Positions 10,693 to 23,699 of a stretch of DNA of 27,678 nt are shown here, one piece after another. The stretch's first letter is position 1. Each line of letters starts with the position of its first letter. The notes under the pieces are model-generated. The model saw only the letters and a list, made by a program, of their open reading frames with translations, made no database searches and had not been told where the DNA came from. Source of the stretch: a virus; the IMG/VR virus record IMGVR_UViG_3300028553_002317, positions 1 to 27,678 of that record. One strand, written 5' to 3'. The translations under genes were made by a program, and so were the position numbers.

Positions 10693-10700
10693 TAACTTAA

Positions 10701-10728
10701 ATAATAGTATACAACCATATGAAATCAA
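10701..10728 (-). promoter_or_regulatory. Early-type promoter candidate for the uvsY-uvsW-55-47-46 operon
   Basis: Minus strand TTGATT (10723-10728), 16-nt spacer, TATTAT (10701-10706), then 8 nt to ATG 10692. The first box lies inside the start of the divergent gene at 10719. Only 26 bp separate the two start codons. Confidence 0.45.
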
Positions 10729-10979
10729 TGAGTTTATTTGAATCAAAATTTTGCAAGCTTCTTGAAGAAGACAATGTTGCAGGTGGCGCAGAGAGCGCTT
10801 TTGGCACTGGCACTTTGGCTCCCATAGGTGATTTTGGTAACCAATTTCCCTCACAAAATGATGATGCATATGCACCAGGTGATGCCAGAATGCCAAAAGC
10901 ATTGGGTGCAAAAAAAAGAAAAAAGAAAAAAGACAAATTCATAATACAGCGACGAGCACTACCAGGTCTTAGCATTTGA
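10719..10979 (+). CDS. Small basic-tailed phage protein, unknown function
   Basis: An 86-residue ORF; ATG 10719, or in-frame ATG 10728 (MSLFESKF). The N-terminus SLFESKFCKLLEEDN has the F..LLE pattern of T4-type capsid-targeting peptides. The middle is a glycine/acidic segment (GDFGNQFPSQNDDAYAPGD), and the C-terminus is very basic (KKRKKKKDKFIIQRR), suited to nucleic-acid contact. It starts the late-type plus-strand block. I recognise the architecture from marine T4-like phages but know no function; a head-internal or core protein is a reasonable guess. Confidence 0.6.
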   Translation: MKSMSLFESKFCKLLEEDNVAGGAESAFGTGTLAPIGDFGNQFPSQNDDAYAPGDARMPKALGAKKRKKKKDKFIIQRRALPGLSI

Positions 10980-10989
10980 TGGCTTGCTA

Positions 10990-10997
10990 GCTAAATA
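10990..10997 (+). promoter_or_regulatory. Late-promoter-like octamer (GCTAAATA)
   Basis: GCTAAATA differs from NATAAATA at one position and ends exactly 5 nt before ATG 11003. No Shine-Dalgarno lies in the gap. Confidence 0.35.
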
Positions 10998-11002
10998 CAC
11001 AC

Positions 11003-11416
11003 ATGGATCTTGGTCATTGGCTACTCTCTGAAGGCATTGTTGTGGATGAAAATACGTTTGGTTTCATTTACGAAATAACAAATGTAGTTACTGGCAAGAA
11101 GTACATTGGCAAAAAACAATGCAAATCCAAGCTAAAGAGAAAGCCATTGAAGGGAAACAAGAACAAGCGCATTGAGATAAAGGAATCTGATTGGAGAGCA
11201 TACACAAGCTCGTCCAATGTGTTGAATGAAGATATACTTAAATATGGCAAAGATAAATTTGTATTTAAAATCTTGCGTGCATGTGGCTCCAAATGGGAAT
11301 TGGCCTATTTTGAAATTAAAGAACAATTGCAGCAGAGTGTTCTGTTGAGAGATGATTACTACAATGGCATCATCAACGTGCGAATTGGCCGCCCTCCAAA
11401 GAATTTTCTTGATTAG
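11003..11416 (+). CDS. GIY-YIG-like nuclease domain protein
   Basis: A 137-residue single-domain protein. GFIYEITNVVTGKKYIGKKQ near residues 19-38 is the two-part GIY-YIG signature (here FIY...YIG), followed by basic segments, the WRAYTSSSNVLNEDI segment, and a downstream glutamate (ELAYFEIKEQ) in the place of the metal-binding Glu. The compact size resembles stand-alone phage GIY-YIG proteins rather than intron homing enzymes with a DNA-binding tail. In T4, GIY-YIG enzymes include DenA (host DNA degradation) and the Seg homing endonucleases; which role applies cannot be told. The late-type octamer upstream favours late expression. Confidence 0.72.
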   Translation: MDLGHWLLSEGIVVDENTFGFIYEITNVVTGKKYIGKKQCKSKLKRKPLKGNKNKRIEIKESDWRAYTSSSNVLNEDILKYGKDKFVFKILRACGSKWELAYFEIKEQLQQSVLLRDDYYNGIINVRIGRPPKNFLD

Positions 11417-11442
11417 CTTGTAATTTTCATTCATAATGTGGC

Positions 11443-12006
11443 ATGCTTAAAAAACTTGAGTTCAAGCAATACAATTTTCGCGTAATCGACTTTAACTCTA
11501 TTTTTATCAAGAAAATTGAAGTTGGTTTAATTAACGATCTGCATCGTTTTGATTTGTTCAAAGGCAGAATAACATCACATGCAAAAAAGTTTTTTTATCA
11601 TCATATGATCTTCAGTCTGTGTGAATTTTTATTGCATGACAAGTCAAAGGAGAAGACAATCATATATTTTAATAACACACAAATGTCGGATTTGGAGCTT
11701 TTCAACTATTTCAAAGAAGATGAAGTGCAACATGTTGTGGAGCAAGTAATGAGACGCATAAAGATCATATTGCCCATCAGAGTTTTTATTACAAACATTT
11801 CATATGATTTTCTGCAGCATCTCATGGATAAGAAGGATGGACGTGGTGTAGAGCTTGTTAATAGTCTTCGATCATATGTTGATAGTGTTGATTATGAAAA
11901 GTATACGTTTAACAGGGTGTTGACGTTTACAAAACGCAATGATCTGGTGTTTCTAAGCAAAGATTATTTTGATAAACTCAAAGCAAAACAACTTATGATT
12001 GTTTAA
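11443..12006 (+). CDS. Unrecognised protein, 187 residues
   Basis: A soluble, basic protein rich in aromatic residues and Lys, without signal peptide or membrane segment. Visible features are an N-terminal KKLEFKQYNFRVIDFNSIF, a His-containing segment (SHAKKFFYHHMIF), a strand-like KEKTIIYFNNTQMSD, and ILPIRVFITNIS, together suggesting an alpha/beta fold. I do not recognise the family. It lies between the GIY-YIG gene and a small putative head protein, all on the late strand. No known catalytic motif stands out. Confidence 0.6.
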   Translation: MLKKLEFKQYNFRVIDFNSIFIKKIEVGLINDLHRFDLFKGRITSHAKKFFYHHMIFSLCEFLLHDKSKEKTIIYFNNTQMSDLELFNYFKEDEVQHVVEQVMRRIKIILPIRVFITNISYDFLQHLMDKKDGRGVELVNSLRSYVDSVDYEKYTFNRVLTFTKRNDLVFLSKDYFDKLKAKQLMIV

Positions 12007-12009
12007 AGT

Positions 12010-12017
12010 AATAAATA
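12010..12017 (+). promoter_or_regulatory. T4-type late promoter octamer (AATAAATA)
   Basis: AATAAATA ends 5 nt before ATG 12023. A TTG-start alternative for the downstream gene would begin upstream of this octamer, so the octamer supports the ATG. Confidence 0.5.
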
Positions 12018-12022
12018 ATAAT

Positions 12023-12463
12023 ATGACCTTTAATGACCGCTTGATAAGATATAGATCTCTTCTGAATGAACAGGAACCAGTGCCACAGGATGCTGCTGCA
12101 CCTGCTCCACAAGCTGAACAACCATCAGCATTGCCTGCAAAAGCTGCACCAGTAGCTGTTCCACCTGAGGGTTATGTGGACATGGTGAGGTTGCTTGCCA
12201 AAGCATTGGTGATGAATGTGCCGGCTGGGTCAGTTGATACTCTGTTTACAACACCCATCACAAAGGAGAATGCATATGAAATGAGAGAGCAAATTGAAAA
12301 TGCCATTTCAACAAGTGAGAGTGCTGGTGATAATGATGCGAGGGTATCCAATCCTAACGTTTTAAAATTTGTGAATTCAATTAATGAGAAGAATTTCATG
12401 GTGAAGTACAAACAAATTCTTGACATGATGCAAAACTACAGCAACGATCCAAAGTTAAAATAA
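12023..12463 (+). CDS. Small head-type protein with Ala/Pro linker
   Basis: A 146-residue ORF. N-terminal MTFNDRLIRYRSLLNEQ resembles a capsid-targeting peptide with a prohead-protease-like LNE site. Next come a low-complexity Ala/Pro/Gln linker (residues about 20-50) and a helical C-terminal half (YVDMVRLLAKALVMNV ... FMVKYKQILDMMQNY). I do not know the family. The layout of targeting peptide, flexible linker and compact helical domain would suit an internal head protein. ATG 12023 is chosen over TTG 11999 because of the late octamer position. Confidence 0.6.
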   Translation: MTFNDRLIRYRSLLNEQEPVPQDAAAPAPQAEQPSALPAKAAPVAVPPEGYVDMVRLLAKALVMNVPAGSVDTLFTTPITKENAYEMREQIENAISTSESAGDNDARVSNPNVLKFVNSINEKNFMVKYKQILDMMQNYSNDPKLK

Positions 12464-12464
12464 C

Positions 12465-13571
12465 ATGCAAAAATATCGAAGCTTGCAGGATATTTATTTA
12501 AGCGAAAGTTTTGCAAAGTCGTTACCGCCTTTGCCTAGACAGACAATTAATTGGTTAATGGAAGCTATAGCTGATGCCCCGCCTCCTGCCCCAAATTCAG
12601 CTTATGTACAACTTTACGTAAAAGATCCTTCAAAAAATGAACAACAATTTGTAGGTAATATTGAAGTCGATTATTTTAATAAGATTGTTAAGCCCGTTCT
12701 GAGTAGAGGTTCTGAGAGTGCTATAGATACCAACCGGTTAATAGAAAAGAGATTAAAAGATGCAAATATTACTACAGAGAATCTTAATCCTATTTTTGAT
12801 TTTATTCAAGATACGCAGATGAAAATTACTACAGAAAACTTTGATAAGTGTCAGGGTATATTTAAAAGGTCTATAGCTGAAGAAGGGATTTTCTATATAT
12901 CAAATATTCTTTCGGAAAGCTTTAATACAGCTGTAGAGAATATTACCAATAAATCTGATGAGTTGTTAAATTTGATGAGATTAAGAGCACAAGGTGGATC
13001 TGCAGGGCATGGTAGTCGTAGTGAAGTGTCAGGTCCTGGTGAAGTTGTTCTCGCATTTTTTGGTAACGGTAGAAAAATGTCTATACAGAAAAGAAGAGGA
13101 ATGCCTTCAGAAAAAGGAGATGTGTCGTTAGGAGAGCTTAGAATAGAATTAAAAGGTACAGAAGCAAGAATACATCCTGTTACTGAAATTAGATATACTT
13201 CTGAACATGGTACAGCAAAAAAAGGAGATTTTTTTAAAAAAACTATTAAAACAGATCCAAAGAGTGCAATAAAATACATTGTTTTTGGAGAAGTAGGTCT
13301 GCAGAACAATAATTTTGATAATGAGTTAGATGTGGAATTAAAGACCGGTATTGACCCTGTTATTGTAGCAATAGGTCTTGCCTTAAGAGAGTATCAGGTA
13401 TTAGCTAACTTTAACTATTATTGTTTTATTGACTCAAACCGGGCGACAGGGCTTGGACTTACATGCTCGGGTAAAAAATTATCTGAAATTGGAAAATGGT
13501 TTACAACAAATGTTGGCAATTTACAATTTGACAGAGGTGGTCACAGGCTACCAGCAACCTTTAAGATATAA
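12465..13571 (+). CDS. Predicted PD-(D/E)XK nuclease-fold protein
   Basis: A 368-residue ORF of unassigned family. Residues 190-230 read GPGE ... KGD ... IELKG, i.e. E193, D219, E228 and K230. This order and spacing fit the metal-binding core of PD-(D/E)XK nucleases, where a GxGE helix precedes the GD and ExK strands. The N-terminus SLQDIYLSESF contains an LSE site like other putative head-targeted proteins here. Codon use is unlike its neighbours (TTA/CTT for Leu, GGT for Gly, GTA for Val, versus CTG/TTG/CTC and GGC next door), suggesting different ancestry. It could act on DNA in the head or in the newly infected cell, or be a structural protein with a degenerate fold. The nuclease call is an inference. 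Confidence 0.55.
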   Translation: MQKYRSLQDIYLSESFAKSLPPLPRQTINWLMEAIADAPPPAPNSAYVQLYVKDPSKNEQQFVGNIEVDYFNKIVKPVLSRGSESAIDTNRLIEKRLKDANITTENLNPIFDFIQDTQMKITTENFDKCQGIFKRSIAEEGIFYISNILSESFNTAVENITNKSDELLNLMRLRAQGGSAGHGSRSEVSGPGEVVLAFFGNGRKMSIQKRRGMPSEKGDVSLGELRIELKGTEARIHPVTEIRYTSEHGTAKKGDFFKKTIKTDPKSAIKYIVFGEVGLQNNNFDNELDVELKTGIDPVIVAIGLALREYQVLANFNYYCFIDSNRATGLGLTCSGKKLSEIGKWFTTNVGNLQFDRGGHRLPATFKI

Positions 13572-14791
13572 TGATGACGTTTAAACAGTTTCTGCTTGAG
13601 GGCGGAGTTGCTGGACATATGGCACATCCTTTTGATCTGCCTAATGTCAATAGCGGCAGAGATCTTATTAACATCTTCAATAAAATAGCCATCAGCTTGA
13701 CCAAAAAGCCGTCTGCAGTAAAAATTGATGGTGTGAATGCTTCCATCAAACTCATCACCAACAGCAAAGGCAATAAAGAATTTGCCATGGATCGTGGTTC
13801 CAACAAACCTGAGGACGTTGAAGGTGTTACCATTGACAAGCTTGCCTTGCGTTTTCCTGAGGGACATGGCATGAGAGACACAGGCAAGACAGTGTTGGAG
13901 ATTTTTAATCAAGCGCTTCCTTCTGTAGAAAAACAACTCAAACAGTTGAAGATGTGGGATAATAACACCATTCTTTTCAACATGGAGTTTGTCAAAGGTG
14001 CAACAAACGTGATTGGTTATGTGAATAATTTTCTTGCCATCCATGGATTGAATGAAATAGTGCAAGTGAAGAGCCCCATTCGCGGAAGTGTGAGTCGCGC
14101 TTCACGCGAAGTGTCGTATGATAAAAAGGCTTTGCAATCATTCATAGAAACTATCAAGCCCATTGCTAAGAAACATGGTTTTGATGTTGTTAATGAATTT
14201 GCTGTTACTTTGACAAACAAGATTGATTTTAATCCAGAATTAAATTCCAAGTTTTCTGTAAGTTATGATTCACGCAACATACAAGCACATCCTCTGAAGG
14301 ACTGGTTGAGCAAGGCAAAGAATCCTCGTGCTGACAAGATCAAGCTGGCATCTGGCAAATCCATTGGTGCAATGAGTTTGGAGAATTATAAGAGCATGTC
14401 TGCAGGTGTGCCTTTGAATCATTATCTGGGTGCAAATGACAAGGACTATCAAAAAGCCATTGATGGTGCAGTGATGGTGCATGCAACCATCATGATGGGC
14501 CAAAAGATAAAGGATGCAGCAACTTCAGAATTGGGCAGTGTGGGTACACAAGAGGGCATTGTTATCAGAGATGCAAACATATCAGTGAATCCATTGAAAA
14601 TAACAGGCAATTTTTTCACAGGCAAAGAGACAGGGCGCATCAAACAACTCAAAACACAGGAACAAGAAGAAGGCATCCGGGGTCAACTTGCAAACACCAA
14701 CCGAGTGCAAGACAGGACAAATTATCAGACAAATCCATTGGGTGGTAAGGAGGGTGGGCGAATGACATTGACACCAGGAATGAACATATGA
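13571..14791 (+). CDS. Nucleotidyltransferase-superfamily (ligase-like) protein with capsid-targeting-like N-terminus
   Basis: A 406-residue protein with motifs of the covalent nucleotidyltransferase superfamily (DNA/RNA ligases and capping enzymes): motif I K51-I-D-G54, R75 in FAMDRGS (Ia), E139 in ILFNMEFVKG (III), EGIVIRD at 328-334 (IV), and a candidate motif V lysine K343 (PLKITGNF). Related proteins occur in marine T4-like phages as families of unknown function. The N-terminus MTFKQFLLEGG closely resembles T4 internal-protein targeting peptides (MKTYQEFIAEA). It overlaps the previous stop by 1 nt (TAATG) and the next gene by 4 nt (ATGA). The substrate is unknown: nick sealing, RNA repair or protein/nucleotide adenylylation are all possible. 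Confidence 0.7.
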   Translation: MMTFKQFLLEGGVAGHMAHPFDLPNVNSGRDLINIFNKIAISLTKKPSAVKIDGVNASIKLITNSKGNKEFAMDRGSNKPEDVEGVTIDKLALRFPEGHGMRDTGKTVLEIFNQALPSVEKQLKQLKMWDNNTILFNMEFVKGATNVIGYVNNFLAIHGLNEIVQVKSPIRGSVSRASREVSYDKKALQSFIETIKPIAKKHGFDVVNEFAVTLTNKIDFNPELNSKFSVSYDSRNIQAHPLKDWLSKAKNPRADKIKLASGKSIGAMSLENYKSMSAGVPLNHYLGANDKDYQKAIDGAVMVHATIMMGQKIKDAATSELGSVGTQEGIVIRDANISVNPLKITGNFFTGKETGRIKQLKTQEQEEGIRGQLANTNRVQDRTNYQTNPLGGKEGGRMTLTPGMNI

Positions 14792-15441
14792 AATTTGATG
14801 TGCTAATAGAACAGATACTGCAACAACAAAAGAACAATCTGGTTGTTATTTTTCCGGGAAGATTTCAACCATTTCATGTGGGCCATAAGAAGCTTTATGA
14901 TGCTGCCAAGCAAAAATTTCCAGGTGCAGATTTTTATGTGGCCACAGCAGATGCAACACAGAGCAATGTCAAGGAGCCAGATCGTTATCCTTTTAATTTT
15001 GCAGAGAAAAAGCAGATCATCCAAGCCACAGGCATACCAGAGAATGAGATTGCACTCACACCACAACCTTACAGACCCATTGAAGTGTTGAAAAAATATG
15101 ATCAAAATGTTGCGAAAGTGGTTTACATTGTTGGTGAAAAAGACATGAGAGAGAATGCAAGATTTTCATTCAAACCAAAGAAGGATGGCTCTGCATCTTA
15201 TTTCCAGCCATTCAAAAGCTTGAATGAACTGGAGCCTTTCAAAGAACAAGGTGGGCATGGCTACATATATGCACCAGGCACTGTACAGTTCAATGTGGGT
15301 GGCAAGAGCATCACTAGTGCCACAGAATTAAGAAACATGTACAAGACAGCAGATGAAGCAACAAGGAAGCAATACATCAAAGACACATTGGGCAAGTACG
15401 ACCAGGGCATTTACAATTTATTCAATACCAAGCTGAGTTAA
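14788..15441 (+). CDS. HxGH nucleotidyltransferase (NMN/cytidylyltransferase-like)
   Basis: A 217-residue Rossmann-type nucleotidyltransferase. IFPGRFQPFHVGHKKL (residues 21-36) carries the H30-x-G-H33 signature, IVGEKDM is the mid-fold segment, and ITSATELR (175-182) matches the ISSTxLR motif that holds the triphosphate. Closest in pattern are NadM/NadR-type NMN adenylyltransferases; other cytidylyltransferases cannot be excluded. An extra N-terminal helix (MKFDVLIEQILQQQ) precedes the catalytic strand and contains LIE, again like a capsid-targeting peptide. Translationally coupled to the ligase-like gene (ATGA). Its 3' end overlaps the convergent gene by 4 nt. If it makes NAD, a link with NAD or ADP-ribose chemistry early in infection is conceivable. 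Confidence 0.78.
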   Translation: MKFDVLIEQILQQQKNNLVVIFPGRFQPFHVGHKKLYDAAKQKFPGADFYVATADATQSNVKEPDRYPFNFAEKKQIIQATGIPENEIALTPQPYRPIEVLKKYDQNVAKVVYIVGEKDMRENARFSFKPKKDGSASYFQPFKSLNELEPFKEQGGHGYIYAPGTVQFNVGGKSITSATELRNMYKTADEATRKQYIKDTLGKYDQGIYNLFNTKLS

Positions 15442-16010
15442 GTTTTGTTTTCAAGCAACACAATGGTCTCCATCAACACCTTTTCAAGTGTTTCTCTGGA
15501 TTCTTTTTTCAACACAGACCTCAACTGATTGACCAATGAATCCCCACCTTTTGCAATGGCTGCATACAGGTCTTCTTCATTGTTCTCTTCCACACCCATC
15601 ATTTCCATCTGACTGCGCGCTGCTTCATAATCTTTGTAATCAAAAACTGATTCCAGGTCATCATGTGCATTGGTGAGCTTGCTCAATACCCATGCTTCCA
15701 CCTCACCACCTTTGCGTATGATATCATGCAGCATTGCTGACAGTTTAAAAATTCTAAACAAAAGCTGTTTGGACATGTAATCATTCTTTTCTGTGTCTTC
15801 CAATCCATCTTGTGTTGCCATGGCACTATCGCATGATTCACAATCTTCACTCTCTCCATCACAATCTCTCTGCGGCACTTTGAAGCCCTGTATTTTTGTT
15901 GGTGAAGGTATTACATTCTCATTGTCTGCTTGTGGTCCAAGGCCAACACTTTCTTTGACAATCTGCAGATTGTAGATGTCATTCAACTGATGATAGTCCT
16001 TATGGAACAT
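15438..16010 (-). CDS. Acidic helical phage protein, unknown function
   Basis: A 190-residue acidic protein. N-terminal MFHKDYHQLNDIYNLQIV; a Cys-rich acidic patch (CDGESEDCESCD); then a helical segment DYMSKQLLFRIFKLSAMLHDII ... VEAWVLSKLTNAHDDLESVFDY. This second pattern (a helix followed by a Trp-containing LSKLTNA helix) recurs in several proteins of T4-like marine phages, whose function is not known to me. It runs against its neighbours on the minus strand and has its own late-type octamer 5 nt before the ATG, so it is probably virion or assembly related. No enzyme motif is seen. Confidence 0.65.
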   Translation of the reverse strand: MFHKDYHQLNDIYNLQIVKESVGLGPQADNENVIPSPTKIQGFKVPQRDCDGESEDCESCDSAMATQDGLEDTEKNDYMSKQLLFRIFKLSAMLHDIIRKGGEVEAWVLSKLTNAHDDLESVFDYKDYEAARSQMEMMGVEENNEEDLYAAIAKGGDSLVNQLRSVLKKESRETLEKVLMETIVLLENKT

Positions 16011-16015
16011 GTAAT

Positions 16016-16023
16016 TATTTATT
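16016..16023 (-). promoter_or_regulatory. T4-type late promoter octamer (AATAAATA)
   Basis: Minus-strand AATAAATA ends 5 nt before ATG 16010. It is divergent from the late-like octamer at 16051-16058. Confidence 0.5.
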
Positions 16024-16050
16024 CAAATACAATGAAATTATTGCCATTAT

Positions 16051-16058
16051 AATAAGTA
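16051..16058 (+). promoter_or_regulatory. Late-promoter-like octamer (AATAAGTA)
   Basis: One mismatch to NATAAATA, ending 5 nt before ATG 16064. It pairs with the divergent octamer 27 bp away. Confidence 0.35.
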
Positions 16059-16063
16059 TTACT

Positions 16064-16471
16064 ATGCAGCCATTCAAGGATTTCTACAATAAACCTGTGT
16101 TGGGTGTGGATGAAGTCATCGATGTGGAAGGATTGGGTGTGGTCAAAGCCAAGGTGGACAGTGGCAATGAAGCGTACAATGTGATCCATGGGGTGGATAT
16201 TTCACAAGAAGGTGAAAACGTCTCTTTTACAACTGTAGGTGGAAAAAAAATGACTGCACCTAGAGATGGTGAGATAAAGATACACATTGGCAGTGGTGTA
16301 AAGGAAGACAGGCCCACAGTGAAGCTCAACATCAAGATCAATGGCAAAGCATACAAAGATGTGACATTCAGTGTTGCTGATCGTTCAGAAAATCAAGATC
16401 CTATTCTCATTGGTGAACCGTTTCTGAAGCAACTGAATGCAGTGATTGATGTGAACAAGGAAATAAAATAA
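16064..16471 (+). CDS. Clan AA aspartic-protease-like (retropepsin fold) protein
   Basis: A 135-residue single-domain protein. VVKAKVDSGNEAYNVIHG contains the D-S-G catalytic triplet near residue 32, flanked by beta strands. The C-terminal PILIGEPFLKQLNAVIDV matches the hydrophobic-hydrophobic-G motif and final strand of retropepsin-like domains. One domain of this size would work as a homodimer. The family includes putative Asp/zinc-type proteases related to the bacterial domain linked with RimK. Here it lies one base before a fibre gene, behind a late-like octamer, so processing or folding of a virion protein is possible. Activity is not proven by sequence. Confidence 0.65.
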   Translation: MQPFKDFYNKPVLGVDEVIDVEGLGVVKAKVDSGNEAYNVIHGVDISQEGENVSFTTVGGKKMTAPRDGEIKIHIGSGVKEDRPTVKLNIKINGKAYKDVTFSVADRSENQDPILIGEPFLKQLNAVIDVNKEIK

Positions 16472-16472
16472 C

Positions 16473-17288
16473 ATGGCTGATGTAACTATAGATGCATTAC
16501 CGGCAGATTCACCAAGCAGCACAGCTTCTATACCATTTTCTGATGGTGGTGTAACAAAGAAAGTCAACCCTACAAATATTTTAGTTAATGCAGGTAATGT
16601 AGGTATAGGTACAGCTAGCCCTACGCAAAAATTAGATGTTGCTGGTGTTATAACTTCTGATTATTTAACTGTTAGAAAACAGAACGATGTAGGAGAAGGT
16701 GGTGAAATACAGTTGCAAGGTTCGGGAGGATTTGGCGGGGTTCAGATAGATAATTTAGGCGGTAACTGCAGAATACATACACTGGCTGCAGGTAAGCAAT
16801 TACAAGTAGTGGGCGGGGGTATATATGCGGAAGGGCCTATAACAGCCACCAGATTGAATGTAGCAGGCACAGTATTACAAGTTGTGTTTAATACAGCATC
16901 AACTGAAGTTAGACATGATTCCAACTATGCTAATATAATCTCTAATTCTATAACAACTAAGGGTGCCAATTCAAAGATACTTGTAACCATAAACCAGCAT
17001 ATTTTTACAGATCAAGACACAGGCTATGGTTTTCGCATTGTAAGAGACGCATCTGTCATATACACTGCTGTAAATGCTGGTGCCAGCGGATTTGGAGTAG
17101 GAGGGAGTGTCAACACACAGATATATAATTTTGTAACCTTTCAATGGTTAGACAGCGGAGCAACTACACAAAATCAAGCCTATACTTATTATGGTCAAGG
17201 CTGTCGAAATAATGGCGGTAGAGGATGCACTTCCAATCCTGGCAGCAACAGAACATCCACCATCACTTTGATGGAAATAGCAGGTTAA
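16473..17288 (+). CDS. Tail fibre / adhesin-type structural protein
   Basis: A 271-residue protein with three parts. An N-terminal anchor-like domain (MADVTIDALP ... FSDGGVTKKV, about 1-40) is followed by the GNVGIGTASPTQKLDVAG repeat-type motif common in phage fibres, then a Gly-rich beta region to about 125. The C-terminal domain (VLQVVFNTASTEVRH to the end) resembles a receptor-binding tip, with a SKILVTIN strand pair. The first residues are shared with the orphan ORF at 17982. Codon use favours GTA, GGT and TTA, unlike flanking genes, which fits frequent exchange of receptor-binding genes. It ends directly against folE (convergent, zero gap), with no obvious terminator hairpin. Confidence 0.75.
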   Translation: MADVTIDALPADSPSSTASIPFSDGGVTKKVNPTNILVNAGNVGIGTASPTQKLDVAGVITSDYLTVRKQNDVGEGGEIQLQGSGGFGGVQIDNLGGNCRIHTLAAGKQLQVVGGGIYAEGPITATRLNVAGTVLQVVFNTASTEVRHDSNYANIISNSITTKGANSKILVTINQHIFTDQDTGYGFRIVRDASVIYTAVNAGASGFGVGGSVNTQIYNFVTFQWLDSGATTQNQAYTYYGQGCRNNGGRGCTSNPGSNRTSTITLMEIAG

Positions 17289-17930
17289 TTAATTCTGCGC
17301 AAACTCTACAAACTTGTAGAACTCAGCTCTGGAATTGTCATTGTTATCCAAGAACGCACCAGACATTCTGGCTGTGCGCATGGTGGAATCATGACGGATG
17401 CCACGATTGGAACAACATGTGTGATTGGCTTCAATTAGCACTGCCACACCATTGTTCTTCTCACACACCAAATCAATGTGTGCATGAATTTGCATGGTGA
17501 GGTTTTCTTGCACCTGTGGACGACGAGCAAACCAATCCACCACCCGGTTGAGCTTGCTCAAACCAATGACCTTGCCTTCCTTGGATGGGATGTAAGCCAC
17601 ATGAGCCACTCCAGTGAAGGGTGCATGATGATGTGAACACAATGAAGTTAATTTGATGTTGTTTTGACACACCATGCCATCATATTGATCAATGTTATCA
17701 AAAGCGGTGATTTTGGGAGGCAAGCTGTAACAACCCCATGCAAAGTCTTCCACAAAAGCCTTGGCCACTCGGTGCGGAGTGTTGTCACTGTTAGGATCAT
17801 TTCTCCAATCATATCCTAAAGCATCCATGTAAGCTTCATAAGCCTTAGATGCTCTTTCAATGATTTGATCTCTTTCTTCTTGAGTATGAGGATGATTGTG
17901 ATTAGCGAAAGCAAGTTTTACATTGGACAT
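17289..17930 (-). CDS. folE: GTP cyclohydrolase I
   Basis: A 213-residue FolE (E. coli 222). It converts GTP to 7,8-dihydroneopterin triphosphate, the entry step shared by folate and 7-deazaguanine synthesis. Conserved elements: TPHRVAKAF (51-59), the CSHH zinc loop with C98 and H101, IGLSKLNRVVDWFARRPQVQE with substrate-binding residues, and NHTCCSNRGI with the third zinc ligand C172. All zinc and catalytic positions are present. It is on the minus strand between plus-strand structural genes, with its own promoter-like boxes 6 nt before ATG 17930. Together with QueD and QueE in this window it points to deazaguanine rather than folate production. Confidence 0.95.
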   Translation of the reverse strand: MSNVKLAFANHNHPHTQEERDQIIERASKAYEAYMDALGYDWRNDPNSDNTPHRVAKAFVEDFAWGCYSLPPKITAFDNIDQYDGMVCQNNIKLTSLCSHHHAPFTGVAHVAYIPSKEGKVIGLSKLNRVVDWFARRPQVQENLTMQIHAHIDLVCEKNNGVAVLIEANHTCCSNRGIRHDSTMRTARMSGAFLDNNDNSRAEFYKFVEFAQN

Positions 17931-17936
17931 ATATAT

Positions 17937-17964
17937 ATTATATGATAAGATGTAACCAGATCAA
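17937..17964 (-). promoter_or_regulatory. Early-type promoter candidate for folE
   Basis: Minus strand TTGATC (17959-17964), 16-nt spacer, perfect TATAAT (17937-17942), then 6 nt to ATG 17930, predicting a start at or next to the ATG. The first box directly abuts the opposite-strand late octamer at 17965-17972. Confidence 0.5.
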
Positions 17965-17972
17965 CATAAATA
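17965..17972 (+). promoter_or_regulatory. T4-type late promoter octamer (CATAAATA)
   Basis: CATAAATA ends 9 nt before ATG 17982. It adjoins the folE early-type promoter on the other strand, so the two polymerase forms would compete for the site. Confidence 0.45.
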
Positions 17973-17981
17973 ATATTACGT

Positions 17982-18146
17982 ATGGCTGATGTGACAATAT
18001 CCGCATTAGGTGATTTAATACCGACAACAGGTTTGTTCCTGCCTGTATCTGATGCATCAACCACTGGCAAAGTGACCTTGTCTCAAGTGCGCGTGGCCAT
18101 TAAGAATTTTGGCAATGAAGCAGTGTGCATATTCTATGATGTGTAA
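17982..18146 (+). CDS. Orphan fibre-anchor-like small ORF
   Basis: A 54-residue ORF starting MADVTISALGDLIP, with FLPVSDASTTGKVTLSQVRVAI after it. The first six residues and the overall pattern (MADVTI, A-L, a short loop, F/I-P-x-SD, a T/V-K-V strand) match the first 40 residues of the fibre protein at 16473. It then stops after GNEAVCIFYDV. It looks like an N-terminal fibre-attachment domain without the rest of the fibre: either a remnant of gene exchange or a small protein that occupies or caps the attachment site. A late octamer upstream suggests it is expressed. Confidence 0.6.
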   Translation: MADVTISALGDLIPTTGLFLPVSDASTTGKVTLSQVRVAIKNFGNEAVCIFYDV

Positions 18147-18153
18147 AGAAATA
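18146..18153 (+). promoter_or_regulatory. Late-promoter-like octamer (AAGAAATA)
   Basis: One mismatch to NATAAATA, ending 5 nt before ATG 18159. It overlaps the last base of the preceding stop codon. Confidence 0.3.
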
Positions 18154-18158
18154 ATGAT

Positions 18159-18596
18159 ATGAAATACAATTATGTAATATTAGAGAGCTTAAAGAAGACA
18201 GCTTTGAAACGCATACGCATCAAGGTGGATCCAGCACAAGTGAGTGCTGAAGCTGACTTCACAAAAGTGGATGGTTATGAAGGATATGTATTGGAAGAAG
18301 GCAAAGGTCATTTGAAGATTCTGGTGCTTTCCCCAGAAATGAGCATTGAGACAATTCCTATGGAATTCATTGAGGCCATAGCTGCAGAAGCAGATTATGA
18401 TTCATTTTGCTGCTTCAAAGAATACCTGATCAGGCAATTGCTTAAAGATGGAAAAATAATGAATGATCCCATCATAGCACAGATAAATAATACAAACAGC
18501 TTGTGTGATGTGGAGACCATCATTCGTCAATGTGGGTACACAGGAGACAAGCTGGCAGACTTATACAGAGGATTTTTATCAGATGAAGAAACTTGA
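18159..18596 (+). CDS. Unrecognised phage protein, 145 residues
   Basis: A soluble alpha/beta-looking protein. N-terminal KYNYVILESLKKTALKRIRIKV has an ILE triplet; DGYEGYVLEEGKGHLKILVLSP suggests a small beta domain; the rest is helical, with IDs such as FCCFKEYLIRQLLKDGKI. No catalytic motif or known family is recognised. It sits in a run of short late-strand genes and its last 14 nt overlap the start of the next gene, so the two are probably translated together. A structural or assembly role is guessed from position only. Confidence 0.55.
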   Translation: MKYNYVILESLKKTALKRIRIKVDPAQVSAEADFTKVDGYEGYVLEEGKGHLKILVLSPEMSIETIPMEFIEAIAAEADYDSFCCFKEYLIRQLLKDGKIMNDPIIAQINNTNSLCDVETIIRQCGYTGDKLADLYRGFLSDEET

Positions 18597-19170
18597 ATTT
18601 AACGATTTAGTGAGCGTCATTCTTAATGAAGATGGTTTTCTTCGCAAGATAGGCAAAGGCTTGATCAAGCCATCCAATTGGGTTGGTGCTGCAGCTGCAG
18701 CTGTGAATGCACCCAAAGCCATAACCACAGCTGTGATGGGCAGGGGGCAAATAGGCAGAGGGTTAAATGCATTGCAAGGTGGTCTAGCCAAGGGTGAAAA
18801 TCGCAGAGAAGAAGAACAAAAGAAGAAAGATGAAGAGCTTAAAAAGCAGCATGACAAAGTAGAACATTTTGACAAAACGTTTGTGGATACCCTTCTCATG
18901 AAATCCAGACCAGGCACACCGGCACAGCAGACAACGGCTGGCAGCATGCAAGCAGCCGGCACAGTAACTGGAGGCACAGCAACACCTGCTGGCAGCAGTG
19001 GCACCAGCTCAGGATCTGTGACAGCACCCATGTCACAAACACCTGCAGCTGCACCAGCAAATCCCAAGGAGGGTGAAGTGTTCTCCATAGTTAGTCAACA
19101 AGGTCGGGTGCAAAAATATAAGATTTTAAAGATTGACAAGGCTGTGGTAAGTGCAACACCAGTCATATAA
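18583..19170 (+). CDS. Ala/Thr/Gly-rich protein with capsid-targeting-like N-terminus
   Basis: A 195-residue ORF, ATG 18583. The frame is open from 18505 but the upstream part lies inside the previous gene and looks unlike protein. The N-terminus KKLEFNDLVSVILNEDGF resembles a head-targeting peptide with an LNE site. Next are an alanine-rich helix (VGAAAAAVNAPKA), a charged coiled-coil-like helix (RREEEQKKKDEELKKQHDK), a long Thr/Ala/Gly/Pro/Ser low-complexity stretch (about 110-160) and a short final fold (EVFSIVSQQGRVQKYKILKID). The composition suits a scaffold, internal or linker protein. Family not recognised. Confidence 0.6.
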   Translation: MKKLEFNDLVSVILNEDGFLRKIGKGLIKPSNWVGAAAAAVNAPKAITTAVMGRGQIGRGLNALQGGLAKGENRREEEQKKKDEELKKQHDKVEHFDKTFVDTLLMKSRPGTPAQQTTAGSMQAAGTVTGGTATPAGSSGTSSGSVTAPMSQTPAAAPANPKEGEVFSIVSQQGRVQKYKILKIDKAVVSATPVI

Positions 19171-19449: not shown

Positions 19450-20112
19450 ATGAAATACGAAAGTACAAAAATTATTGAATTGGGTAGTTGCGCTTTTAGA
19501 CAATGGAAGGCAGACAGTCACTGCAAATTTATACATGGATACAGACTAGTCGCGAAATTTCAGTTTGCATGCAATCGATTGGATGAAAGAAATTGGGTGG
19601 TTGATTTTGGTGGCTTAAAGGCTCTCAAGCAAGTATTTGCAAAACAATTTGATCATACATTATGCATTGCAGCAGATGATCCCTTGTTGGAAACATTCAA
19701 GCAATTGCATGCAACAGGTGCATGTGATTTGAGAGTCATGTCCAAAGGTGTTGGCATTGAAAGAACAGCAGAATATTGCTTTGATGTGGCTGATGCACAT
19801 GTGAGAGGCATTACAAACAATAGATGCTGGGTGGAGAGAGTGGAAGTGTGGGAACATGATAAAAACTCTGCCATTGTTTCTTTTGATTCTGTTATTACAC
19901 CTCAGCAAACAGGCAACACTGTGGCCACCACCATACAGGCACCCATCAATCAAGTGAAAGATTTCTTAGAAGATGTGGCTGCAGAAACAGGCATAAATGT
20001 GGCAAACATTCTCAAGAATGCTCCACCCCCTGCATCGCAAGGTGCACGTGTGGGTAACGTCACCACCACGAGTTATTCCAATTTGTTTGGAGGTACCAGC
20101 TGGGGCCAGTGA
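19450..20112 (+). CDS. queD: QueD/PTPS-family 6-carboxytetrahydropterin synthase
   Basis: A 220-residue protein; the QueD domain covers about residues 1-145 (E. coli QueD is about 120). SHCKFIHGYRL carries the catalytic Cys25 and His29; RNWVVDFGGLKALK and FDHTL (D68-H69) are the conserved core; VERVEVWEHDKNSAI gives the distal Glu. The usual HGH zinc pair reads HGY (Y31) and the earlier zinc His is not evident. From memory this HGY form also occurs in bacterial relatives, so it may be a true subfamily. A C-terminal tail of about 70 residues (VKDFLEDVAAETGI ... SQGARVGNVTTTSY) is extra. The family reaction turns dihydroneopterin triphosphate from FolE into carboxytetrahydropterin for QueE. Confidence 0.85.
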   Translation: MKYESTKIIELGSCAFRQWKADSHCKFIHGYRLVAKFQFACNRLDERNWVVDFGGLKALKQVFAKQFDHTLCIAADDPLLETFKQLHATGACDLRVMSKGVGIERTAEYCFDVADAHVRGITNNRCWVERVEVWEHDKNSAIVSFDSVITPQQTGNTVATTIQAPINQVKDFLEDVAAETGINVANILKNAPPPASQGARVGNVTTTSYSNLFGGTSWGQ

Positions 20113-22002: not shown

Positions 22003-22740
22003 ATGAGTGATCAAACTATCTTCCTAAGCGACGACAAAATATTTTATACACTGGAAGGTGAAGGTGAATATGTTGGGTGTCCTTCAGTATTTATGCGTCT
22101 GTCCATGTGCAACTTGACATGCAAAGGTTTTGCATCTGCAGATGCACCCAATGGATGTGATAGTTTCATTAGCTGGTCAGTAAAAAATAGAATGACCTTT
22201 GATGAAGTATTTGATTACATGACGCAACGTGGTTATCAATGTCATTTAAGGGATGGTGCTATCTGGAAAATTACCGGCGGTGAGCCGCTTATTCAGCAGA
22301 AAGCCCTTCTAGAACTTGTAGATCAATATATTTTTAGATTCGGCTACGTACCAAAGATTGATTTTGAAACCAACGCAACAATATTACCTGATCAACAATG
22401 GAAAGACTGGGGTGCTACGTTTACTACATCACCAAAATTAAGCAACAATGGTGACCCTGTTGAAAAAAGATACAAACCGGAAGTGCTGAAGTGGCATGCT
22501 CAAAATAAGTCTGGATTTAAATTTGTTGTTAGCGGTGAAGATGAAGTGAATGAAATTCTCGAAAAATACGTGCAAGATTGTAAAGTACCAACAGATCGTA
22601 TTTGGCTCATGCCCTGTTGTGGCAGCAGAGATGAACACACTGAAAAATGTCCCATGGTTGCTGAGTTTTGCAAGAAACATAATTTTAAATTCAGCCCCAG
22701 ATTGCAGCTTGTAATTTGGAACAAAGCTCTTAAAGTATAA
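22003..22740 (+). CDS. queE: 7-carboxy-7-deazaguanine synthase (radical SAM QueE)
   Basis: A 245-residue radical SAM enzyme. FYTLEGEGEYVGCPSVFMRLS is the QueE substrate-binding start; the cluster cysteines are C36-x3-C40-x11-C52, followed by Asp as in the usual CxxxCxxCD(T); KITGGEPLIQ is the SAM-binding GGEP; and DFETNAT is a further QueE motif. The loop is about nine residues longer than canonical, in line with the known variability of this loop in QueE proteins. It converts carboxytetrahydropterin to 7-carboxy-7-deazaguanine. It sits one base before a P-loop kinase-like gene, and FolE and QueD are nearby. Confidence 0.88.
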   Translation: MSDQTIFLSDDKIFYTLEGEGEYVGCPSVFMRLSMCNLTCKGFASADAPNGCDSFISWSVKNRMTFDEVFDYMTQRGYQCHLRDGAIWKITGGEPLIQQKALLELVDQYIFRFGYVPKIDFETNATILPDQQWKDWGATFTTSPKLSNNGDPVEKRYKPEVLKWHAQNKSGFKFVVSGEDEVNEILEKYVQDCKVPTDRIWLMPCCGSRDEHTEKCPMVAEFCKKHNFKFSPRLQLVIWNKALKV

Positions 22741-23486: not shown

Positions 23487-23699
23487 ATGGCACAGTTCAA
23501 TGACAAGTATGAAGAGCTTCTGGAAAGCTTCAAATACATCAAGACAGTTAAAAGAGAGTTTTACCCAAAAAACTTCAGATTATCAGAGACATTTGTCAAA
23601 GCTTTCAGAGCTGAGTACAAACGGCTACTTGATGAAGGCATACATCCTCGCAAAGCTTTGGTGAAGCTCAACAAAGCACTCTTATTCCACTCAAATTAA
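23487..23699 (+). CDS. Small helical basic protein
   Basis: A 70-residue ORF, ATG 23487; the frame is open from 23430 but that part overlaps the kinase-like gene. Helical and basic (EELLESFKYIKTVKREFYPKNFRL ... AEYKRLLDEGIHPRKALVKLNKAL). TTAAATA ends 5 nt before the ATG, one mismatch from the late octamer, and is shared with the upstream stop codon. The 3' end overlaps the convergent fibre-like gene by 9 nt. Function unknown; DNA or RNA binding is possible from charge alone. Confidence 0.6.
   Translation: MAQFNDKYEELLESFKYIKTVKREFYPKNFRLSETFVKAFRAEYKRLLDEGIHPRKALVKLNKALLFHSN

Follow-up and report, generated by a model that had tools for sequence, protein, structure and literature searches.

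Candidate head-targeting peptides of T4 type on late genes of an uncultured T4-like phage

The internal proteins of the T-even phages form a highly diverse set that is conserved only in the capsid-targeting sequence (CTS), according to an excerpt of PMC3012670. Both ipII and ipIII of T4 begin MKTYQEFIAEA. Excerpts of cyanophage virion studies report the T4-GC190 cytidyltransferase in purified S-SM1 virions (PMC3037559), a cytidylyltransferase in virions of S-CREM2 (PMC10665884) and of S-SZBM1 (PMC9146016), and NMNAT-like virion proteins for S-SCSM1 and S-CBWM1 (PMC9602691); a targeting tag on these proteins is not mentioned in those excerpts. Here we analyse a virus record of 27,678 b (IMGVR_UViG_3300028553_002317, taken over its full length and called the window below) from an uncultured T4-like phage, the polymerase of which has about 30% identity to those of T4-superfamily phages. 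The plus-strand genes from 10719 to 15441, together with 18159, 18583 and a few more (each named by its lowest coordinate), would encode late phage-head cargo bearing T4-type targeting peptides, a reading to which we assign a probability of about three in four.

In the mechanism that we propose, a short N-terminal amphipathic peptide would attach each protein to the scaffold core of the prohead, in the manner of the CTS of T4 internal proteins; once cleaved behind (L/I)xE by the gp21-family protease of the phage, the mature protein would stay in the DNA-filled head and be injected at infection. We infer that the proteins of this phage are packaged, cleaved and injected, and likewise what each cargo does; the action on DNA ends, nicks or NAD suggested originally is a conjecture. 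Of the candidates, 10719 and 12465 appear to make the strongest case; that for 12023, 11003, 18159 and 13571 is good, and that for 18583 and, by its homologues, for 14788 is moderate. With T4 IPI, IPII and IPIII (and Alt) the set would share an N-terminal amphipathic (L/I)xE peptide, a conserved tag on diverse bodies and late synthesis, and the T4 sequence MKTYQEFIAEA resembles the MITFKQFLLEG of the 13571 family. In contrast to the T4 proteins, the window set has more candidate carriers per genome, includes enzymes, falls into several tag classes (KDxxLIxEAY, FDxLVxxILNE and LFExxFxxxLE) and has two successive sites in 12465.

The window is 99.98% identical, across the 19.4 kb shared, to a 48-kb contig (G011) that encodes the head module gp21 (PF03420), gp22 and gp23. 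Comparisons were made with the relatives G001, G002, G003, G005, G006, G007, G008 and G010 (60 to 158 kb) and with two distant relatives, G019 (157 kb) and G021 (185 kb); genes of the relatives were called with a simple script, and their start sites are therefore approximate. The group appears to be a family of freshwater T4-like phages, and tblastn against phage records with 13571, 12465, 10719, 18159 and the gene at 83824 of G001 returned no match.

The seven N-termini listed in the original prediction were all found where it had placed them, with sites (the arrow marking the predicted cut) in 10719 (LLE↓ED), 12023 (LNE↓QE), 12465 (LSE↓SF, with a second site LME↓AI), 13571 (LLE↓GG), 14788 (LIE↓QI), 18159 (ILE↓SL) and 18583 (LNE↓DG). 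The comparison that it had suggested with the phage's own gp21 substrates revealed similar sites, namely VLRE↓A and ILTE↓D in gp22 and CFE↓A in gp23.

A gp23-derived small protein and a tag on variable bodies

Gene 10719 (10719..10979, plus strand) encodes an 86-residue protein, a 'mini-gp23 arm', in which a CTS-like helix is followed by a gp23 cleavage junction with N-arm and by a lysine tail. The codons of the predicted cleavage glutamates E16/E17 (LLE↓ED, LEE↓DN) lie at 10764..10769, the stretch resembling the gp23 N-arm (NVAGG...GNQFPSQNDDAYAPGDARMPKALG) at 10773..10907 and the lysine-rich tail KKRKKKKDK at 10911..10937, all on the plus strand. Alignment with the gp23 of G001 by BLAST gave 54% over 57 residues (E=6e-15), spanning the cleavage junction and N-arm. 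The protein thus shares these two regions with the T4-type gp23 of its clade and differs from it in the helix at its start, the lysine-rich tail at its end and the absence of a capsid fold; because its 86 residues end before the capsid domain, it is by sequence a gp23 derivative and not a coat protein. An [LI]xE precedes the gp23-like NVAGG in 36 of the 39 distinct homologues (38 of 39 if F or V is counted), although this count is biased towards the motif, because the script, given a choice of two glutamates, took one that had a hydrophobic residue at -2. The middle residue is free, being L, N, T, A, S, I, D or Q.

As a special case among the candidates, 10719 would probably serve as an anchor to the inner shell or as a DNA neutraliser. 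For this protein one could instead envisage that it times or buffers cleavage by the gp21 protease, acting as a decoy substrate or an inhibitor, since the junction and N-arm of gp23 are reproduced within its 86 residues and T4 has an annotated protease inhibitor, Inh. We consider such a role unlikely, as the lysine tail better fits a packaged protein, and so does the gp23-arm-like stretch in gp160 of S-CREM2. The latter, an unnamed virion protein of 297 residues, has like 10719 a stretch resembling the N-arm of its own gp23 (GFTGAAAPxGPxAGxDP) and then a basic stretch, but is longer and unrelated in the rest of its sequence. Likewise, S-SM1 gp197, annotated as a major head protein (152805-153353; L113:2805-3353(+)), has ATGPNAGYDPVL, which resembles the N-arm of its own gp23, followed by a basic stretch.

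The mini-arm was closer to the gp23 of its own genome (0.72) than to that of others (0.61; permutation p=0.002, seven genomes, relatedness uncontrolled); this covariation is weak and not clear in G021 and G025, and is retained as a hint. A broader proposal is tentative and somewhat doubtful: aquatic T4-like phages would use a modular head-delivery code, with interchangeable N-terminal tags on many enzymes and, in addition, a dedicated mimic of the gp23 arm that copies the N-arm of the coat protein, changes along with it and so fastens cargo or DNA to the inner shell. The arm mimic is a separate idea on how small proteins may be held in the head.

Head targeting of the 368-residue protein 12465 (12465..13571, plus strand) is suggested by two LxE sites in a strongly conserved N-terminal tag, which precedes a hypervariable body. 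In 18 loci the protein has kept the N-terminal sequence Y(K/R)SLxxIYLxESFAKPVPxLPRQ, which contains the first predicted site (IYLSE↓SF, glutamate codon 12504..12506, +). At the second (WLME↓AI, glutamate codon 12561..12563, +) the glutamate is invariant in the family and the residue before it is free (ILGE↓A, IFNE↓A, ILKE↓A, VLNE↓Q, WLME↓A). The first 25 residues are 67% identical and the bodies 21%, and the family ranks third of 99 for the excess of N-terminal over body identity; 12465 thus looks like a protein that evolves in the manner of a T4 internal protein. The two families ranked above it (138178 and 146385 in G001) may by their sequence be tail proteins, and an N-terminal docking segment is therefore a fair general reading of such contrasts.

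The original prediction had also called 12465 a PD-(D/E)XK protein. Its E-x-K motif is present, with E228-x-K230 invariant in the family, and is the sole basis for the call; searches of Pfam, PHROG and PDB gave no match and the predicted model (predicted local distance difference test score, pLDDT, 45) was too poor for a structure search.

Late promoters, cyanophage virions and the predicted enzymes

A box, NATAAATA, peaks exactly 5 nucleotides (nt) ahead of the ATG of many genes in G001-G011. In the window, a late-promoter-like box that is kept in relatives stands upstream of 10719 (CTTAAATA, 10696..10703, +), a promoter-like box stands 5 nt before the ATG of 11003 (GCTAAATA, 10990..10997, +), and a predicted late promoter 5 nt before the ATG of 12023 (AATAAATA, 12010..12017, +) probably drives 12023-15441. 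The genes 12465, 13571 and 14788 probably share the 12023 transcript, because the gene ends overlap or nearly so. A further predicted late promoter, that of 15438(-), lies at 16016-16023 on the minus strand. A relaxed form of the box, 3-16 nt upstream, was found for 50 of the 63 CTS-like genes (counting those with an upstream gap), 27 of 28 structural genes, none of 42 replication genes and 111 of 372 others. Counted by family, the late box accompanied 11/12 CTS-like families against 45/139 (p=8e-5), a result tempered by the fact that the CTS-like families were picked by eye, before the test. Late expression of the tagged genes is supported by these promoter statistics. Sites of Shine-Dalgarno type score low for many genes of the group, and if NATAAATA is a T4-type late promoter, the late mRNAs of the group may be leaderless.

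The PHROG family phrog_395 includes both 14788 and the cyanophage T4-GC190. NMNAT-like proteins detected in virions begin MKKFSAFLNEA (S-SM1), MKNFSSFLTEA (S-CREM2) and MRFRQFIIEA (S-SZBM1), and others begin MKKFSAFLSEA (Syn9), MKSFSQFLTET (P-SSM2), MKSFKQFILEQ (G021) and MTFKRFLAEQ (G019). When the first 25 residues of S-CREM2 proteins were scanned for the CTS pattern [FYL]..F[LIMF].E, 6/26 of the non-structural proteins detected in virions had it, compared with 1/157 of the undetected ones (p=3e-5); the pattern was fixed after reading the sequences, which weakens this test, though it is near the CTS of T4. The six carriers are a SAM hydrolase, an annotated Cas9, a kinase, the cytidylyltransferase, gp13 and gp136. 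A tag would explain the recurrence of enzymes in particles purified from related marine phages, and would make it possible to predict, for uncultured T4-like phages, the uncharacterised proteins that enter the host at infection. The virion-detected protein of S-CREM2 annotated as Cas9/Csn1 (OR473000; L114:7704-10313(-)) has a T4-CTS-like KKPLRFASFMAEAA near its N-terminus.

The predicted enzymes 13571 and 14788 are adjacent. The former (13571..14791, plus strand; 406 residues, N-terminus MMTFKQFLLE↓GG) is a candidate KxDG/EGIV nucleotidyltransferase of ligase-like type, with motif I (K51-I-D-G54) and motif IV (EGIV at 328) invariant in 16 sequences. Among viral proteins, its model (pLDDT 77) matches fusions of a ligase-like domain with a cytidyltransferase; matches in PDB, to tRNA ligase and RNA editing ligase, were weak (E=0.03-0.2, low template modelling score). 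The ligase-like call made originally is carried by these motifs together with the weak structural matches.

The HxGH nucleotidyltransferase call for 14788 (14788..15441, plus strand; 217 residues, N-terminus MKFDVLIE↓Q) proved solid, with FHVGH at residue 29, PF01467 (CTP_transf_like) above the cut-off and phrog_395 at E=2.8e-13. Like T4-GC190, it belongs to phrog_395, and its gene neighbours one for a KxDG ligase-like protein, an arrangement also seen in S-SM1 189/190; unlike T4-GC190, it is shorter, has almost no extension between tag and domain, and carries a tag that has drifted in the window clade. It is speculation that the 13571 ligase, if it depends on nicotinamide adenine dinucleotide (NAD), and the NMNAT together recycle nicotinamide mononucleotide to NAD.

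These data also bear on the idea that the peptides dock proteins to the tail or neck, or to the scaffold during assembly only, so that their bearers would be structural or assembly factors and not injected cargo. The late promoter is common to tail genes too, and the possible tail proteins among the families of highest N-terminal contrast would suit docking. Several of the window proteins carry enzyme motifs, however, the S-CREM2 carriers include enzymes (SAM hydrolase, kinase and nucleotidyltransferase), and the peptides resemble the head CTS of T4 and the gp22 sites of this phage; we thus regard docking of this kind as very unlikely.

Specificity of the N-terminal peptides

Several observations weigh against head targeting. 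Of 232 clade protein families, 31% have the bare [LI]xE within their first 25 residues, against 21-25% for internal windows, and a test on conserved columns in 108 families gave 21% against 15% (p=0.06, not significant). Within the clade it is mainly 13571 that shows the T4-type pattern, and the S-CREM2 pattern, applied to S-SZBM1, was met in one virion protein and one undetected protein. The 13571 site is kept, but within a generally conserved stretch. In Microcystis phage Mel-JY01 (L095:3920-5839) the NMNAT-like and ligase-like domains are fused with IIAEGGLGGHMNHPFD at the joint, so that the equivalent of LLEGGVAGHMAHPFD lies within the fused protein; the LLEGG of 13571 may for this reason be domain sequence, an internal cut site or a site kept from a fusion, and a protease might cut at the joint itself, between two cargo domains. 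The ligase-like homologue of S-SZBM1, gp141, is without a CTS and was undetected in virions. The cleavage site predicted for 14788 did not hold up as a conserved feature, as its glutamate shifts by one residue within the clade (LIE/LVE in the window and G001, VNE elsewhere). Finally, excerpts of the virion studies have the authors allowing NMNAT as a contaminant (PMC10665884, PMC9602691), a point on which a T4-type tag on NMNAT-like proteins would offer both a mechanism and a sequence test.

A stricter pattern (a hydrophobic residue, 2-3 residues, a hydrophobic residue, [LI]xE, then a small or polar residue) was about fourfold enriched at N-termini (5.0% against about 1.3%). Unsupervised motif discovery over all N-termini gave no dominant motif, and the tagged class is therefore a minority that motif discovery does not demonstrate. 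The gp32-like SSB of G001 (79011-79859; L045:19014-19859(-)) is a replication protein and nevertheless begins with MNTFTTSMFESIKGAL, which fits a loose CTS pattern; such patterns thus yield false positives.

It is quite unlikely, in our judgement, that the (L/I)xE matches are chance occurrences in N-termini rich in Leu, Ile and Glu, the genes being ordinary late cytoplasmic accessory enzymes. The bare-motif and conserved-column figures and the drifting site of 14788 are what one would then expect, but the 36/39 conservation at a gp23-like junction, the conserved tag on hypervariable 12465 bodies, the detection in virions of tagged homologues and the N-terminal-only peptides common to unrelated proteins would be left unexplained. 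Of the latter, KDxxLIxE(A/I)Y starts five unrelated clade families, including that of 15438(-), in which it is degenerate in the window itself, as well as six G021 proteins, with no internal occurrences found; MITF(K/N)QF..E stands on unrelated bodies in the 13571 family (MITFKQFLLE) and in a mini-gp23 of G019 (MITFNQFCSE).

Thus the peptides on which the original prediction was built are present, but because the bare motif is little above chance the evidence it offered was thin, and support rests on comparison across relatives. Well kept there, with a variable middle residue, are the sites of 10719, 11003, 12023, 12465 and 18159. For most of the late gene set, capsid targeting gains from the gp23 homology of 10719, the tag on variable 12465 bodies, the late promoters and the cyanophage virion proteomics.

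Further candidate tagged genes and neighbours

Three candidates were absent from the list first drawn up: 11003, 15438(-) and 23487(+). The SegE-type GIY-YIG protein 11003 (11003..11416, +; PF19835, E=2e-29) has an N-terminal MDLGHW(L/I/V)LxE↓G that is conserved in orthologues. The 190-residue protein 15438 (15438..16010, -) has an N-terminus of KDxxLLNExY class in relatives and a degenerate one, KDYHQLNDIY, here, and the 70-residue protein 23487 (23487..23699, +) starts with MAQFNDKYEELLE↓SF. The 146-residue protein 12023 (12023..12463, +) has a CTS-like MTFNDRLIRYRSLLNE↓Q followed by a Pro/Ala linker, with [LIF]xE kept in relatives. Neither 12023 nor 11003 displays the pattern of a conserved tag with a diverging body.

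Gene 18159 (18159..18596, +; 145 residues), graded as the weaker case at first, turned out otherwise, since (I/V)xE↓SLKK is kept in relatives with x variable. Its neighbour 18583 (18583..19170, +; 195 residues) has a CTS-like KLEFNDLVSVILNE↓D and bodies that diverge among relatives; the contrast between tag (34%) and body (22%) identity is weaker than in the 12465 family, and the site is missing in one relative. The N-terminus of the 135-residue protein 16064 (16064..16471, +) is degenerate here, and distant orthologues are tagged, that of G019 starting MKTFKQYIQE and that of G021 containing MIKFKQYFQE.

Amid the tagged genes, a 187-residue open reading frame (11443-12006(+)) has no tag and no family match. 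The window also encodes a partial queuosine/7-deazaguanine pathway (17289-17930(-), 19450-20112(+) and 22003-22740(+)), with GTP cyclohydrolase and QueD-like genes recognised by profile and a possible QueE-like gene by reading of its sequence.

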